Below are positions 3,947 through 46,986 of a DNA stretch of 64,000 bases, piece after piece. Numbering within the stretch: position 1 is the first letter of the stretch; each line of letters starts with the position of its first letter. The DNA is from Methanosphaera sp. ISO3-F5. GTDB lineage: Archaea; Methanobacteriota; Methanobacteria; Methanobacteriales; Methanobacteriaceae. The notes beneath the pieces are model-generated. The model was not told the origin of the DNA. It saw only the letters and a program-made list of their open reading frames with translations, and did not search any database. A program made the translations under genes and the position numbers. The stretch covers positions 1,769,426 to 1,833,425 of the forward strand of contig NZ_CP118753.2 in NCBI RefSeq assembly GCF_034480035.2, in the 5' to 3' direction.

Positions 3947-6865
3947 CTATTGAACTTTCACGTATCTGTCTGTAGAACAAAGCATTTTATTATTGGAGTA
4001 ATATGTTGCTTTAATATTATACGTACCTTCATTATTTGGCATGGTATATTTGAATGTATACTCCTTGCCTTCTACACTAACATTTTTAATCATTTTATCA
4101 TTTAATGTGTACACAATATTTCCTCTCATGTTCTGATTATTAATGTTATAAATATTAGTTTTTAAACAAATCGTAGAATTTTTCGGAATATCATGTGTGA
4201 TCTTTCCACCATATAACTGTATGAATGATCGTGCAACAGAATCACCCTTCATATCATATCTTTCAAACACTATTTTAATTCCATCTTTTTCCATAGTTTT
4301 CCGAGGATTACTTATTCCACCCCACCTGGAATAATTGTCATCCCAAGCCTTTTCCAGCCAATAATAATATTCACCATCAGGATTATATATGTCACCAGCA
4401 CCATGGAACCATCCAAGCACAATATCATTTCCTCGCTTTCTAACACTTGTAAGAAGATTATCATATCCTCTCAGATATTCTCTGATTACGTTAGCATCCA
4501 CACCATTACATAATACGAAACAAATACTATTTCTCACATTGTTTTTATACATGTAACGAGCAGTTTCATAAGTTTCTCCAGGACCATTTTTAACAGTTTT
4601 AACATTAAATCCATTGCTTCTTAAATTATAGGCAATATTATTCATTATTTTCATATCATTGGGACTATAGTTATATGAGGCTGTTGTTCTATCCATTGCA
4701 AAATAAACATCTTTTTTATTGGATGTTATTTTTGAATTGGAAATTAAATCGCCGGCTAATGTAATAAATGTTTCCTGCTTGATTTGTGCTTCAGGTTTAT
4801 TCACCGTAAATATATCTGCACAGGCTATTATGAACTTATTATTCCGGTAATACTTCATTTTCACGGAATAATTTCCTTCTTTTGGGGGCATATTAATTTT
4901 TAATGTAGAAAGATTGTTTTTTACTTCAGATGTTCCAACGTGTTTGTCATTCAAATAGAATTTTACTAATCCCGTATTCACTGTTTTTTTATTATTATTT
5001 CGTATTATGGTTCTTAATGTTCCTCGTTTTTCTGTAAATAATGCAGGATTATTCACTATTCTCATAGTGTAATCTGACTTTGGATTAACAGTTAATTTAA
5101 CATTTTTTGACACGCTATGATAATTTGGTGCACCAAACACTACTTTCAAATCATAAACACCTATATCATGTTTTGAAATCTTGATTTTATTGCTGGATGC
5201 ATTAACTGTTTGAATTTTTTTATTGTTTAAATATATTTTCAGACTTCCATCATGGATTGTATTATTCAAGTTGTCTGTAACATTAATTTCTAATGTTGCA
5301 GTATCTGCATTATTTTTCTGTAAACTTTTCATAAACAAGTGTGCAGTTTCGGTAGCATGAATGTTTAATGTGTTATTGGCTATCGTGTGTGGTGCTTTTA
5401 CAATAAAGTTTACATTGCCTTCTTTGTTAAATTTGTTTGTTAACTTGCAATAACCGGAATTACTATTATAGTTTTTAATTTTTCCGTCTTTTTTCATTAT
5501 TATCTTCATATGGTAATCGGGGATGTTTGTACTTCTGGAAATGGGTGTAATTTTTTTTCCATCAAATATATTATAGATTGAAATGGTTGTATTGATGCTG
5601 CTATTCATTAAGTATCTGTATTTGTGTTGGATGTGGAGGTATAACCATTTATTTACTTTTGTATTGATGATTCGTGACTGTTTTATATTGTTTTTTCCCC
5701 ACCAGTTATAATCTGCATTAATGTTGCCCTTATTGTATATGTCTTTGTTGTTGTCGGTTAATATGTTGTAGTTTAGGATTATGTTTCCTTTAAAGTTGTG
5801 TAGTGTGCTGCCATAGTTTGCACTGTTTTCATGGAATGTGTTCTTTTTGATGCTAGTGTTTGTGTGTGCGTTTCTTATGGCTCCGCCGTATGTTGCACTG
5901 TTTTTGGTGAATGTGGAGTTGTATATGTTATTTCCTGCCTGGTCTGTTTTAATGTATATTGCGCTTTGGTTGTTTGATTTGAATGTGGAGTATTTTATGT
6001 TGAGTATTGTGTGGTTGTATGCGTAGATTGCTCCGCCTGTTTTTGCAGTGTTATGTGTGAAGTGGGAGTATGTGATGTTTATCTTGATGGGGTTTCCTGT
6101 TTTGGAGTATATTGCTCCACCATTTGTGGCACGGTTGTTGTGGAATGTGTTGTTTTTTATGCTTAGTTTTGCGGTGTTGTAAATAGCTCCACCACTTGTC
6201 ATTGCATTGTTTTTTGTGAATAAACAGTTTTTTAGCAGTGCTTTGTTGGTATTGTATATGGCTCCTCCATTTGTTGCATTGTTTTGTCTGAGTGTGGAGT
6301 TGGTTATGCTTAGTTGTCCTTCGTTGTGTATTGCTCCACCTCTCTGTTTTGCGGTGGATGTGGTTATGGTCATGTTTTCTAGTTTTAGTATTCCTTTGTT
6401 GTGTATTGCTCCGCCGCTACCATTTGTTTTTGCTTGTTGTATTGTGAAATGTTTTAGGTTTGCTTTTGCTGTTATTTTTATTGCTTGTTTGTTTTGGCTG
6501 TTTATGATTGTTGTTTTCGTGTTTTCTCCTATGATGTTAATGTTCTTGTTTATTGTTAGTCCTGATTCATAGTATTTTCCGGGTGTTATGTGGATTGTTC
6601 CGCCTGTTTTCACGCTTTTTATTGCATTTTTTATTGTTCGTTTGGGTGAATTTTCTGTTCCATTGTTTGAATCGTTTCCTTTCTTGCTTACATATACTGT
6701 ATGGATTTGTTTGTTTTTGGTGTTGGGGGTAAGTGTTGTGTTTTGATGGGTGTTGCTTGTAATCTTCTTTTCGTGTGTGTCTGGTGTATTGTCTTGTGCT
6801 GATACGCTGGAGATGCATATTAGTAGTAATGCTATGAAGAGTAGGGGTGAGATTTTTCTTATTAT
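3947..6865 (-). CDS. Adhesin-like beta-helix protein lacking a canonical start codon
   Basis: The frame encodes a full secreted adhesin (about 972 residues) if read from an ATA at 6865, giving I-I-R-K-I then a hydrophobic segment ending ISSVSA, which aligns with the signal peptides of its two neighbours. No ATG, GTG or TTG occurs in frame between the upstream stop and 6613, where a GTG would skip the whole signal peptide. A GAGGTG ribosome site lies at 6880-6885. After the beta-helix come Ig-like segments and a unique C-terminal region (FITLAGDLISN, YETARYMYKNN, VLGWFHGAGD) of a kind seen in methanobacterial surface proteins; its function is unknown to me. Either a non-ATG start is used or the start codon has been lost. 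Confidence 0.7.
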   Translation of the reverse strand: MIRKISPLLFIALLLICISSVSAQDNTPDTHEKKITSNTHQNTTLTPNTKNKQIHTVYVSKKGNDSNNGTENSPKRTIKNAIKSVKTGGTIHITPGKYYESGLTINKNINIIGENTKTTIINSQNKQAIKITAKANLKHFTIQQAKTNGSGGAIHNKGILKLENMTITTSTAKQRGGAIHNEGQLSITNSTLRQNNATNGGAIYNTNKALLKNCLFTKNNAMTSGGAIYNTAKLSIKNNTFHNNRATNGGAIYSKTGNPIKINITYSHFTHNTAKTGGAIYAYNHTILNIKYSTFKSNNQSAIYIKTDQAGNNIYNSTFTKNSATYGGAIRNAHTNTSIKKNTFHENSANYGSTLHNFKGNIILNYNILTDNNKDIYNKGNINADYNWWGKNNIKQSRIINTKVNKWLYLHIQHKYRYLMNSSINTTISIYNIFDGKKITPISRSTNIPDYHMKIIMKKDGKIKNYNSNSGYCKLTNKFNKEGNVNFIVKAPHTIANNTLNIHATETAHLFMKSLQKNNADTATLEINVTDNLNNTIHDGSLKIYLNNKKIQTVNASSNKIKISKHDIGVYDLKVVFGAPNYHSVSKNVKLTVNPKSDYTMRIVNNPALFTEKRGTLRTIIRNNNKKTVNTGLVKFYLNDKHVGTSEVKNNLSTLKINMPPKEGNYSVKMKYYRNNKFIIACADIFTVNKPEAQIKQETFITLAGDLISNSKITSNKKDVYFAMDRTTASYNYSPNDMKIMNNIAYNLRSNGFNVKTVKNGPGETYETARYMYKNNVRNSICFVLCNGVDANVIREYLRGYDNLLTSVRKRGNDIVLGWFHGAGDIYNPDGEYYYWLEKAWDDNYSRWGGISNPRKTMEKDGIKIVFERYDMKGDSVARSFIQLYGGKITHDIPKNSTICLKTNIYNINNQNMRGNIVYTLNDKMIKNVSVEGKEYTFKYTMPNNEGTYNIKATYYSNNKMLCSTDRYVKVQ
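5768..6181. repeat. Copy 2 of the near-identical 414-bp block
   Basis: Matches 2322-2735 at an offset of 3446 bases. A second shared block (3118 onward against 6204 onward) has an offset of 3086, so the third gene lacks exactly 360 bases (120 codons) present in the second. Confidence 0.9.
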
Positions 6866-43187: not shown

Positions 43188-43490
43188 TTAGAATCTATAT
43201 GGGTATACTTCATTATTTTCATATTCAATTTTTAACCATCTTTTAAGCAGATCTTCTTTTACGGAATAAACTCCATTATTGTTTGAGATTAATTCTAATT
43301 GTATTAGATTTTTAAAGTATTTACTTAATGTTCCTGATTCAACTTCCAGTTTTTCTGCTAATTCTTTTCTTTGTAATGGTTGTTCTAATAATTCAATTAT
43401 TATGTCTTTTTCCATGTTTGACAGGTTTATCCACGTGTTTATAATGTATTTGATCATTGAAAAAAGGTTGTTGTCGAATGTGTCTATTAC
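43188..43490 (-). pseudogene. C-terminal remnant of an archaeal (PF01637-type) ATPase
   Basis: About 100 residues of a winged-helix end: NMEKDIIIELLEQPLQRKELAEKL, TLSKYFKNLIQLELI and the final LLKRWLKIEYENNEVYPYRF. This tail is typical of the archaeal ATPase (Arch_ATPase) family. The P-loop domain is missing: upstream, from about 43490, the sequence becomes transposase debris. I conclude the ATPase gene was cut by insertion of the element to its right. Confidence 0.65.
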
Positions 43491-43995
43491 AAGATCGAAA
43501 AGCCAATACAACAGACTTAAAACCCGAATACATGTCTCCCATCAATGCTTTAGGATTTAAACATCAATTTTGTAAATTCCATTTTAAACAAAATAACAAT
43601 AAAATTATTAGAAAATATGTTAAAGATAACAATCTACCCGAGGAAAAAAATAAAAGAATATAAAAAGTTTTTACCAGAATTATATGAAATATATGAAGTA
43701 GAAACTCAAACAGAAGTAGCAAAAATCGTAGAAAACTTGAAAAATAAAATAAATGACTTTCCCGAAGTTATTCAATACATAATTAATGAAAAATTAGCAC
43801 CGTATTTTAAAAACTTAACATATTTCCTTGAAAATGCAAAAATCGAAAGCACAAGCAATATCATAGAAAGAATATTTGAAGATCTTGCTCCAAAGCATGT
43901 GAAAAAAATGTTATAAAACCATAAAAGGATTTTTTATCAAGTTTTAATTTAAAATTAAAGCGATGGGATGAGAGGAATGCGATTTTACTGAAATG
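43491..43995 (+). pseudogene. Transposase remnant, left copy (C-terminal part)
   Basis: Reads as TDLKPEYMSPINALGFKHQFCKFHF, then with a frameshift LPELYEIYEVETQ and NIIERIFEDLAPKHVKKM, then with another shift YKTIKGFL and LKRWDERNAILLKW. These are the second Asp region and C-terminus of a DDE transposase. About 480 bases match the right copy (46385-46890) with few changes. Frameshifts make it inactive. Confidence 0.8.
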
Positions 43996-44106
43996 GCGTG
44001 AAAATACCCACTCTTGACAACACCCTTGCACCACCACCATAATTTATATAATTTAAATTACATAACTACCTATCGATATAAATTTTCTCAATAAGAGGTA
44101 ATGCAA

Positions 44107-44409
44107 ATGAAATGGAGTACACTTCAATCTAAAGCTTATGGATTAAATATTAATGATTTTATAAGTGAAAAATTTCTTGATAAACTTAGAAATGAGTTTA
44201 AAGATAAAGATGTTGATGTGATTACATTACAAATTACAGTTAGAGACAAAATAAGAGATCCTAAAAATGATGATGCCAAAGTAGAAATTATTTCATTATC
44301 TAATAGCACTATTGAAGATACATTACTGCATAACACTATTGTGGATGTTACATCTGATGAAAATTTTGAAAAAATAAAAAAAGTTATTGATAATTTTAAA
44401 ATTAACTAA
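44107..44409 (+). CDS. Unknown protein, first gene of PIN cassette
   Basis: 100 residues starting MKWSTLQSKAYG, chosen because AAGAGGTA lies seven bases before the ATG at 44107. It has a mixed alpha/beta pattern, a DVITLQITVRDKI strand region and a charged C-terminus (KKVIDNFKIN). No Cys cluster, membrane helix or known motif. It opens a three-gene block with one-base spacing to the next gene. In two- or three-gene toxin systems the first small gene is often the antitoxin; that role here is only a guess. Confidence 0.65.
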   Translation: MKWSTLQSKAYGLNINDFISEKFLDKLRNEFKDKDVDVITLQITVRDKIRDPKNDDAKVEIISLSNSTIEDTLLHNTIVDVTSDENFEKIKKVIDNFKIN

Positions 44410-44410
44410 A

Positions 44411-44941
44411 ATGAGGATGTTGAAGTTTATGTATTCTAATGAAAATGTTTATATAATAACTAATCATTATCTTTCTAAATCAGGCAATATTTATGATTCA
44501 TTTATTAATGCTATTAAAGAATTGAAAGAAATAATTTATTCAAATGTTGAAAATATCATTGCACAAGATAATAAACCTTCCTTAGATGAGTTAATTGAAA
44601 ATATAAAAGATTCATTTGTTAACACAGAAAATATTTTATCCCAACTTAATTTTTTTGAAGAAGAATATTATGATTTCTCATCTATTAAAGACATGGCATT
44701 CTATATTTTAGATAATAACTTATTAAATCAAATTTCAATCATTAGAAGTTTATTAAAGTCTTTCTATAATCTTGTTCAATTTAAAAAAGATGCTTCCGAT
44801 GAAGAATACAAACAAAAATATGAAGAATTTTCTTCTGAATTAATTAATACAGAACAATTATTTTATACTAAAATATATGAACCTACTGAAAACTACAATG
44901 AAGAAGTATTGTTAGAAATATCCAATTCATTAATAGAATAA
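44411..44941 (+). CDS. Unknown helical protein, second gene of PIN cassette
   Basis: About 176 residues from the ATG at 44411 (MRMLKFMYSNENVYI), one base after the previous stop; a TTG at 44387 would overlap the first gene. It is nearly all alpha-helix, Asn/Glu/Lys-rich, with no membrane segment, no zinc site and no catalytic motif I recognise. Between the first small protein and the PIN nuclease it could be a partner or inhibitor. No close family is recognised by eye. Confidence 0.65.
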   Translation: MRMLKFMYSNENVYIITNHYLSKSGNIYDSFINAIKELKEIIYSNVENIIAQDNKPSLDELIENIKDSFVNTENILSQLNFFEEEYYDFSSIKDMAFYILDNNLLNQISIIRSLLKSFYNLVQFKKDASDEEYKQKYEEFSSELINTEQLFYTKIYEPTENYNEEVLLEISNSLIE

Positions 44942-44958
44942 TAACAGGAGATATGTTT

Positions 44959-45618
44959 ATGAAATCATTTGTAGACACTAATGTTTCTATTGCATATATG
45001 TTCTCTATTGATCCTCTGAATAATAAATCAATGTCAGTTTTTAAAGAATACGAACGTATTTTTTGGTCAAAAATGGTTAAAAATGAATGTAAACAAGTAT
45101 TTGAAAATAAAAGGAAAATTTTAGTTAAGTTTTATAAAGACTTAGTTAATTATTTAAAACCTGAAAATTTCCATAATTATTCATTCAATGAATTAAAAAA
45201 ATACGTTTTTAGAAATTATTCTAGAAGTAAAAAACGTGAACAAATTTTAAGTTCTTTAGACAAATTTTGGTATAATTATGTTAATGAAAGATTTCCAACA
45301 TACACTTCTTTTGTTCAAGCAATAAACAATTGTTTAAAAGACTTGAAACATTTACTTTATTGCAGAAAAGAAGAATGGGAAAAAAATACTTTTTTAACAG
45401 AAAAACGAACTGAAAAATATCTTGATTTGAAAAATAAATTAAAGTCTTTGAATGTTCATTCCCCTGATGATGAAATTGTTCTTGATGCTCATGACTTTAA
45501 TTTAAGGAATAATATTCATTTAGATTTTATTACATTTGATAAAGATTGCTATGAAGGAGTATCTAAAATCAAAGAGTTTCAATTTAACAAAGTAAAAGGA
45601 AAAGATGACTATCTATAA
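44959..45618 (+). CDS. PIN-domain (DUF4935-like) nuclease, third gene of cassette
   Basis: About 219 residues from the ATG at 44959 (MKSFVDTNVSI), preferred because GGAG is nine bases upstream. PIN acidic residues are visible: Asp in FVDTNV near residue 5, DDEIVLDAH near 173, and FITFDKDCYE near 192. The ~120-residue insert between first and second acidic positions is Lys-rich and helical, longer than in VapC, as in DUF4935-type PIN proteins. It likely cuts RNA. Last gene of the cassette; codon use is AT-rich like its two partners. Confidence 0.7.
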   Translation: MKSFVDTNVSIAYMFSIDPLNNKSMSVFKEYERIFWSKMVKNECKQVFENKRKILVKFYKDLVNYLKPENFHNYSFNELKKYVFRNYSRSKKREQILSSLDKFWYNYVNERFPTYTSFVQAINNCLKDLKHLLYCRKEEWEKNTFLTEKRTEKYLDLKNKLKSLNVHSPDDEIVLDAHDFNLRNNIHLDFITFDKDCYEGVSKIKEFQFNKVKGKDDYL

Positions 45619-45659
45619 CTTGCTAATTATTAACTTGCATGAAATCTAAATTTAATATA

Positions 45660-46050
45660 TCATGAGTACACAAAGTACTTCTCTTTTAAAAACATAGCCC
45701 ATTGTTCTTCTCGTCTGTTAAAAAAATCGTCACCATATATTGATTCGAAATAGTATGCTGTTTGCCGTGACATTTCTACACTATTTTTAAAACGTATCAT
45801 TTCAGCCTTCTTTTCATAGGATAAATAACTAATGTATTCATAATTCAAACATTTTTCACATATGTCCAATGAATAATTAGATTATTCCTTGATAAAAAGT
45901 TCTAATGAAGTTACTCGTGTTTTACCACATTTAGAACAAATATATTGTTCTTTACGAATACATTCTAATTATTAAGTTTAAACACCCGTGACCATTATTA
46001 TCCATTTTACAACCACATTCTGCACATACAGGTTGTTTATCTTCATATAA
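45660..46050 (-). pseudogene. Transposase N-terminal remnant, inverted
   Basis: Minus strand reads EDKQPVCAECGCKMDNNGHGC, then with a frameshift IRKEQYICSKCGKTRVTSLE, then a stop, then DICEKCLNYEYI and an HTH-like KAEMIRFKNSVEMSRQTAYYF. This is the zinc-ribbon and HTH head of the same type of transposase whose body lies on the plus strand to the right. Confidence 0.65.
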
Positions 46051-46080
46051 ACTATTTCAGCATAATAATCTGAGAAAAAG

Positions 46081-46890
46081 AACTGGAAAAAATCAATGTA
46101 TTTAATATCTACAAAAGTACATGAAATTAAGATATCCCATCAAGAAATTCAAGACATCTTAGTCGATTATCATATTCATTTTAATCCAAATATTAAAGAA
46201 TATTCAGGATATTATGCATCTGATGCTTTATGAATAAAAATAAAAGAAATCAGTGACAAATACGTGTTTTGTTAGTCTTAGTGGATGTATCTTATGATAC
46301 TATTGTAGCTTATAAAGTTGTTGAAGATGAAACAGAAGAAGAAGTACTAAAATTTCTCAAAGAAGCCACATCAAATCAAGAACGAAAAGCCATCAACAGA
46401 CTTAAAACTCGAATATATGTCTCCCATCAATGCTTTAGGATTTAAACATCAATTTTGTAAATTCCATTTTAAACAAAATAACAATAGAATTATCAGAAAA
46501 TATGTTAAAGATAACAATCTACCCGAGGAAAAAAATAAAAGAATATAAAAAGTTTTTACCAGAATTATATGAAATATATGATGTAAAAACTCAAACAGAA
46601 GTAGTAAAAATCGTAGAAAACTTGAAAAATAAAATAAATGACTTTCCCGAAGTGATTCAATACATAATTAATGAAAAATCAGCACCGTATTTTAAAAACT
46701 TAACATATTTCCTTGAAAATGCAAAAAATCGAAAGCACAAGCAATATCATAGAAAGAATATTTGAAGATTTTGCTCCAAAGCATGTGAAAAAAAATGTTA
46801 TAAAACTATAAAAGGATTTTTTATCAAGATTTAACTTAAAATTAAAGCGATGGGGTGAGAGGAATGCGATTTTACTGAAAATGGTGTTAA
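46081..46890 (+). pseudogene. Transposase remnant, right copy (catalytic and C-terminal part)
   Basis: Reads HEIKISHQEIQDILVDYHIHF, then SGYYASDAL with the first catalytic Asp, a stop, then with shifts VDVSYDTIVAYKVVEDETEEEVL, RKAINRLKT, and the same C-terminal half as the left copy. At least four frameshifts or stops. Its 3' half (46385-46890) is the direct repeat of 43491-43995. Confidence 0.75.
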
Positions 46891-46986
46891 AATACCCACA
46901 CATTCTGGCACTGCTAAACCTGACATATATAATACTGATAATCTACAGAAAAATAAAACAAAGAAAAAAATCAAAGAAGGGAAAAA

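Follow-up and report, generated by a model that had tools for sequence, protein, structure and literature searches.

Toxins of the PIN and HEPN types have RNase folds that are not related to each other, and they are usually studied apart, each as a two-gene system. Among the PIN systems, VapBC is a short type II toxin-antitoxin operon in which the PIN gene lies directly after that of its partner; the PIN active site follows the pattern FxDTN, E, D, D, and VapB-type partners are recognised by a DNA-binding domain (RHH, AbrB, HTH or Phd). HEPN modules include HEPN/MNT, named for its nucleotidyltransferase (MNT), and those with HEPN proteins of PF05168. In TAC systems a third component, neither toxin nor antitoxin, accompanies the toxin-antitoxin pair (PMC5105189, PMC9098466), and an earlier survey treats possible three-component toxin-antitoxin systems in general (PMC2701414).

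We analysed a stretch of 64,000 nucleotides (the window) from the gut methanogen Methanosphaera sp. ISO3-F5 that holds a cassette of three plus-strand genes, g1-g2-g3 (Table 1), which is probably a ribonuclease module of the PIN toxin-antitoxin type with a third component, g1, common to HEPN modules. We did not find the trio described in the open-access literature. A first-pass annotation of the window had noted three tightly spaced genes, the first two of no recognised family and the third with PIN acidic residues, amid transposase debris on both sides, and had suggested an undescribed three-component toxin or anti-phage module. Its observations hold: all three genes are present and intact in that order and on that strand, g1 and g2 have no credible match to known families, g3 combines four invariant acidic residues with Pfam matches among its homologues and a VapC-like model, and the debris consists of frameshifted fragments of one insertion sequence (IS). 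As to the module it suggested, the trio does recur and its third gene belongs to the PIN family, but its core is made up of g2 and g3, with g1 as an optional addition.

Table 1. Features of the cassette and its surroundings in the window, with comparison loci from other genomes
Feature	Coordinates	Strand	Description
C-terminal remnant of ATPase-like gene	43188..43489	-	longer version adjoins the trio in MAG G088
Left IS fragment	43490..44024	+	frameshifted 3' portion of a gene for a 401-aa transposase
Candidate single promoter of the g1-g2-g3 operon, TATA-like element	44045..44056 (approximate)	+	read by eye
g1	44107..44409	+	100-aa small protein, optional third component; family common to g1-middle-HEPN operons
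g2	44429..44941	+	all-helical, 170 aa (176 aa from 44411); predicted g3 antitoxin/neutraliser
g3	44959..45618	+	PIN-domain nuclease of 219 aa (221 aa from 44953) that carries a helical insertion; predicted RNase toxin
Right IS fragment	46113..46903	+	same IS, same orientation, 5'-truncated, frameshifted
Loci of the two recurring g2-g3 sites	L062, L066, L071, L086, L212 and L077, L082, L083, L205, L206, L210, L211, L215		
MSTV1 integrase-g1-middle-HEPN block	L217 1314-2398, PP537965		human-gut archaeal virus

At 22.5% GC, the probability of a random 221-codon frame without a stop is ~5e-10. The first ATG of g2 is at 44411, giving a g1-g2 gap of 1 bp, but the g2 start in the closest relative matches the codon at 44429 (gap of 19 bp), and the extra N-terminus falls within the first 23 residues of the g2 model, which are of low confidence; the 1-bp gap thus depends on an ATG further upstream, at which the g2 of the closest relative does not start. 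For g3, homologues and ribosome-binding-site spacing favour the start at 44959, 17 bp after g2; the same two criteria point to 44107 for g1 and to 44429 for g2. In addition to the candidate promoter of Table 1, a motif resembling TTTATATA can be made out by eye some 55-60 bp 5' of the g1 start in L035 and L036, the two closest trio loci. The earlier description of the cassette as undamaged is accurate for this strain and has to be limited to it, since in G088, a metagenome-assembled genome (MAG) of the same species from goat whose trio is 97.6% identical at the DNA level, g3 is frameshifted by one base.

Alignment of 46 g3 homologues reveals that E45, D172, D178 and D196 are invariant and that the FxDTN motif is nearly so, with F6, D8 and N10 each conserved in at least 90% of sequences (D8 in 44, the other two being gaps). 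Pfam PIN (PF01850) is matched by 14 of the 46 (best E 2.4e-5), and the window protein itself has no Pfam match. With the predicted structure (pLDDT 96.7) as query, Foldseek returned VapC toxins as the most credible matches in the PDB (7vwo, probability 0.91, E 0.08; PAE0151; VapC2), although with TMt around 0.5 and a best E of 0.08 these are weak matches, supportive and not decisive alone. On the fold and active site read from sequence and model, g3 is a member of the PIN nuclease family, and it is predicted to be an RNase. It differs from VapC in its length of ~220 aa and in the helical insertion that separates its motifs II and III.

Our homologue searches were thorough within the Methanobacteriota, where g3 homologues occur in 56 of 152 genomes (E 1e-5); beyond it, genome contigs were scanned once by pattern with the protein from the window, a search that reaches close relatives only and that returned only Methanosphaera and Methanobrevibacter. 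A viral fold library gave no meaningful match. In the g3 copies at L035 (~5165-5215) and L038 (~5430), +1 frameshifts lie in T-rich runs just past the first active-site motif. Divergent g3 relatives have another partner upstream, a protein of ~290 aa (L219 2717-4295, L220 1145-2785, L221 2457-4050), in what is possibly a partner swap; this protein has no credible Pfam match, and the name 'Panacea-like', given on a likeness seen by eye, was dropped because Pfam returned no such match.

The product of g2 is predicted to be an all-helical bundle (pLDDT 83.5), for which neither family nor structure libraries returned a match and no structural relative of the model was found. Pfam and PDB searches detected no VapB-type DNA-binding domain in it and no likeness to a known antitoxin. 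The module is therefore not a strict member of VapBC, from which it also differs in its optional third gene. Scattered weak matches of g1 and g2 to named families, confined to one or two members each, were treated as chance.

The g2-g3 pair is the conserved core of the cassette. We identified 66 adjacent same-strand pairs, g2 then g3, in 46 of the 152 Methanobacteriota genomes, with tandem pairs at some loci, and the g2 and g3 proteins have diversified together (Mantel r 0.86, 0 of 5000 permutations), a correlation to which shared species history contributes; as in toxin-antitoxin systems, two adjacent, co-oriented genes are inherited as a unit. In genomes of the Methanobrevibacter group, pairs recur at two fixed sites, one by thiC and the other by a ribD-like gene (Table 1), and some of these sites carry g2 alone.

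Decay of the pair is one-sided. A broken g3 beside an intact g2 was seen in 12 pairs - ten from the pair survey, plus G060 and G031, the latter counted as broken because motif I of the active site sits in another frame - and the reverse only once, in G097, where g2 lies in two pieces around transposase-like ORFs. This ratio of 12 to 1 (one-sided binomial p 0.002; 0.006 when weighted by gene length) comes mostly from draft genomes, and MAG frameshifts may include assembly errors, but these should strike g2 and g3 alike and so should not favour one gene. A further 15 intact g2 genes stand without g3, some of them at the ribD-adjacent site where relatives keep the pair. Intact g3 without a scored g2 was found six times, and in each case, all being checked, there is another upstream ORF or a split g2. 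Such damage is the pattern expected from loss of a toxin, g3, with retention of its antitoxin, g2: toxin loss is tolerated, antitoxin loss is not. From the obligate pairing, the co-diversification and the one-sided decay, we infer that g2 restrains g3.

These data bear also on whether g3 might be a housekeeping RNA-processing enzyme of the PIN family, with g2 as its structural partner and no toxicity involved. The stable positions of many Methanobrevibacter pairs by thiC or the ribD-like gene do suggest long vertical inheritance, but g3 is present in only about one third of the genomes, is frequently frameshifted and tandem-duplicated, and is survived by a g2 that persists without it, so that we consider a housekeeping role very unlikely.

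The g2 family extends to a gene without a PIN partner that immediately follows the thermosome gene at each of the seven Methanosphaera loci inspected (L124, at 4708-5211, which is C1:142764-143192 in the window's own genome, and L196-L201). This gene is a true g2 homologue (hhalign 97%), every Methanosphaera genome searched contains a g2 match, and the thermosome-adjacent copy looks like a domesticated antitoxin-type gene.

A search for the same trio in conserved order elsewhere, which had been put forward as a check on the first-pass annotation, was successful: g1 lies directly 5' of g2 at 10 PIN loci among the 66 pairs, in several genera of the family, and wherever it accompanies g2-g3 its place is immediately upstream of g2. 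Most g2-g3 loci lack it, so the core function does not require g1. It matches no known family at a credible score and no VapB-type DNA-binding domain, save for a sub-threshold RelB match over 30 residues in one homologue, and Pfam gave no SecB match. The module shares with TAC a third component beside a toxin-antitoxin pair, but g1 matches neither SecB nor any other Pfam family; since g1 is not detectably SecB-like, the module is not TAC, and a chaperone role for g1 would be an analogy only. At two loci (L069 6044-6772, L072 3484-4239) a TIGR04255 protein replaces g1 directly 5' of g2-g3. Its sequence is unlike that of g1, and the idea that g1 is a fragment or relative of TIGR04255 was rejected, as no similarity was detectable.

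Further g1 homologues lie away from g2-g3, and together with their neighbours they form a second operon, g1-middle-HEPN, complete at 13 genomic loci. The alignment of PIN-type with HEPN-type g1 proteins spans their full length (hhalign 99.2%, E 1.4e-19). A profile of the third proteins matches the HEPN structure 9xbd in the PDB (E 1.3e-6), and R47, Y49, Y50, H83, R109, D113 and Y114 are invariant among them, which includes the R, H and RxxxDY pattern of HEPN proteins; taken singly, none of them reaches the Pfam cutoff, which the best narrowly misses, and in PADLOC the operon gives weak HEPN matches. The middle proteins make up one loose family with no nucleotidyltransferase match, in contrast to HEPN/MNT, and are unrelated to g2; a relationship of either g1 or g2 to them was considered and discarded, there being no similarity. 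The g1 family thus heads operons ending in HEPN, whereas the window carries PIN. As judged from sequence, g1 appears to be an optional third component common to PIN and HEPN RNase modules.

The g1-HEPN operon also occurs in a virus. In the GenBank record of the provirus of the isolated virus MSTV1, an integrase, a hypothetical protein (g1), a second hypothetical protein (middle) and a putative HEPN protein stand in a row (Table 1); several other g1-HEPN operons likewise come directly after an integrase-like gene, and on an IMG/VR contig a related HEPN gene adjoins genes read as capsid genes. An anti-virus role of the module is therefore possible, and it could even be the primary one, g1 and/or g2 sensing infection and unleashing the PIN RNase in abortive infection, with the viral HEPN version serving in superinfection exclusion. 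The patchy distribution and tandem duplication of the genes are typical of defence genes. However, the PIN gene was not found in the viruses or plasmids searched, PADLOC models gave no credible match for g1, g2 or g3, and the loci inspected lie mostly among housekeeping genes and not in defence islands. A primarily anti-viral function is, we think, a real possibility that falls somewhat short of being probable; it overlaps with the toxin-antitoxin reading, defence against viruses being one of the functions that a toxin-antitoxin pair can have.

Between the window and the Methanobrevibacter copy at L035, dN/dS is 0.16 for g1, 0.29 for g2 and 0.24 for g3, values in which dS is confounded by base composition but which indicate purifying selection. 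That selection maintains the cassette, as had been suggested, is thus borne out in this comparison; the frequent frameshifts of the PIN gene in relatives mean, however, that selection does not uniformly keep it whole. The same comparison informs the simpler interpretation that this is a plain two-gene PIN toxin-antitoxin system, g1 being an unrelated small gene co-transcribed by chance at some loci. With g1 present at only about 10 of 66 pairs such an interpretation has some appeal, but a chance neighbour would hardly be the most conserved of the three genes (86% protein identity to L035, with the lowest dN/dS), lie immediately upstream of g2 in every case where both occur, and hold the same first position in 13 HEPN operons. 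We therefore regard it as rather unlikely.

Protein identity across the trio is 71-86% between the window and L035, as against ~58% for the neighbouring leuA-like gene and 58-80% for the thermosome between the same two genera. This difference suggests that the trio was acquired horizontally in this strain, though synonymous distances are confounded by its low GC. The site itself is consistent with insertion: two related Methanosphaera genomes have just ~200 bp between the genes that flank it on the left and on the right, so that cassette and debris together represent an insertion into an empty site. The two flanking fragments are ~95% identical, in the same orientation, and both frameshifted and 5'-truncated, and thus derive from one insertion sequence, of which this genome has other matching copies elsewhere, one of them with an open transposase frame of 401 aa. 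Beyond the right fragment lies an intact chromosomal gene, and not more of an element. On the left, the IS fragment abuts what remains of an ATPase-like gene, of which G088 has a longer version; a rearrangement thus distinguishes the left flanks of the two strains.

The first-pass annotation took the cassette to be carried by a composite element, and two direct copies of one IS around it, with an empty site in relatives, are indeed what cargo of a composite transposon would leave. Yet both copies are dead, the left one is different in G088, and ordinary chromosomal genes surround the other trio loci inspected, including the closest relatives in other genera. We accordingly rejected a composite transposon as the unit of mobility, and consider it highly improbable that the cassette is its cargo.

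On the preferred toxin-antitoxin reading, g3 would be a PIN endoribonuclease toxin and g2, encoded immediately upstream, a helical protein that binds and restrains it. The product of g1 would act as an auxiliary third component able to precede either a PIN or a HEPN module; its likeliest role would be that of an adaptor, chaperone or regulator, either keeping the antitoxin stable or tying the release of the RNase to a trigger. Candidate triggers are virus infection or loss of the module, upon which the released RNase would bring about translation arrest in the cell. In this strain the module, which lies between two dead copies of one insertion sequence, would have arrived by horizontal transfer. 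It looks like an unrecognised archaeal toxin-antitoxin system and, by analogy, may still work like VapBC or TAC. Because the genes are small and a toxicity test is simple, the prediction can be checked directly.

More tentatively, the PIN and HEPN operons could be versions of one undescribed modular RNase system that serves Methanobacteriota and their viruses in defence or addiction. A small adaptor, g1, would then control interchangeable effectors, with a middle protein particular to each effector as intermediary, and the HEPN version would belong to viruses, the PIN version to cells. A third protein common to PIN and HEPN modules, found on chromosomes and in an isolated archaeal virus of the human gut, would show that RNase toxins of unrelated fold have a common control layer, and would do so in methanogens, where defence and toxin-antitoxin biology have been little explored.
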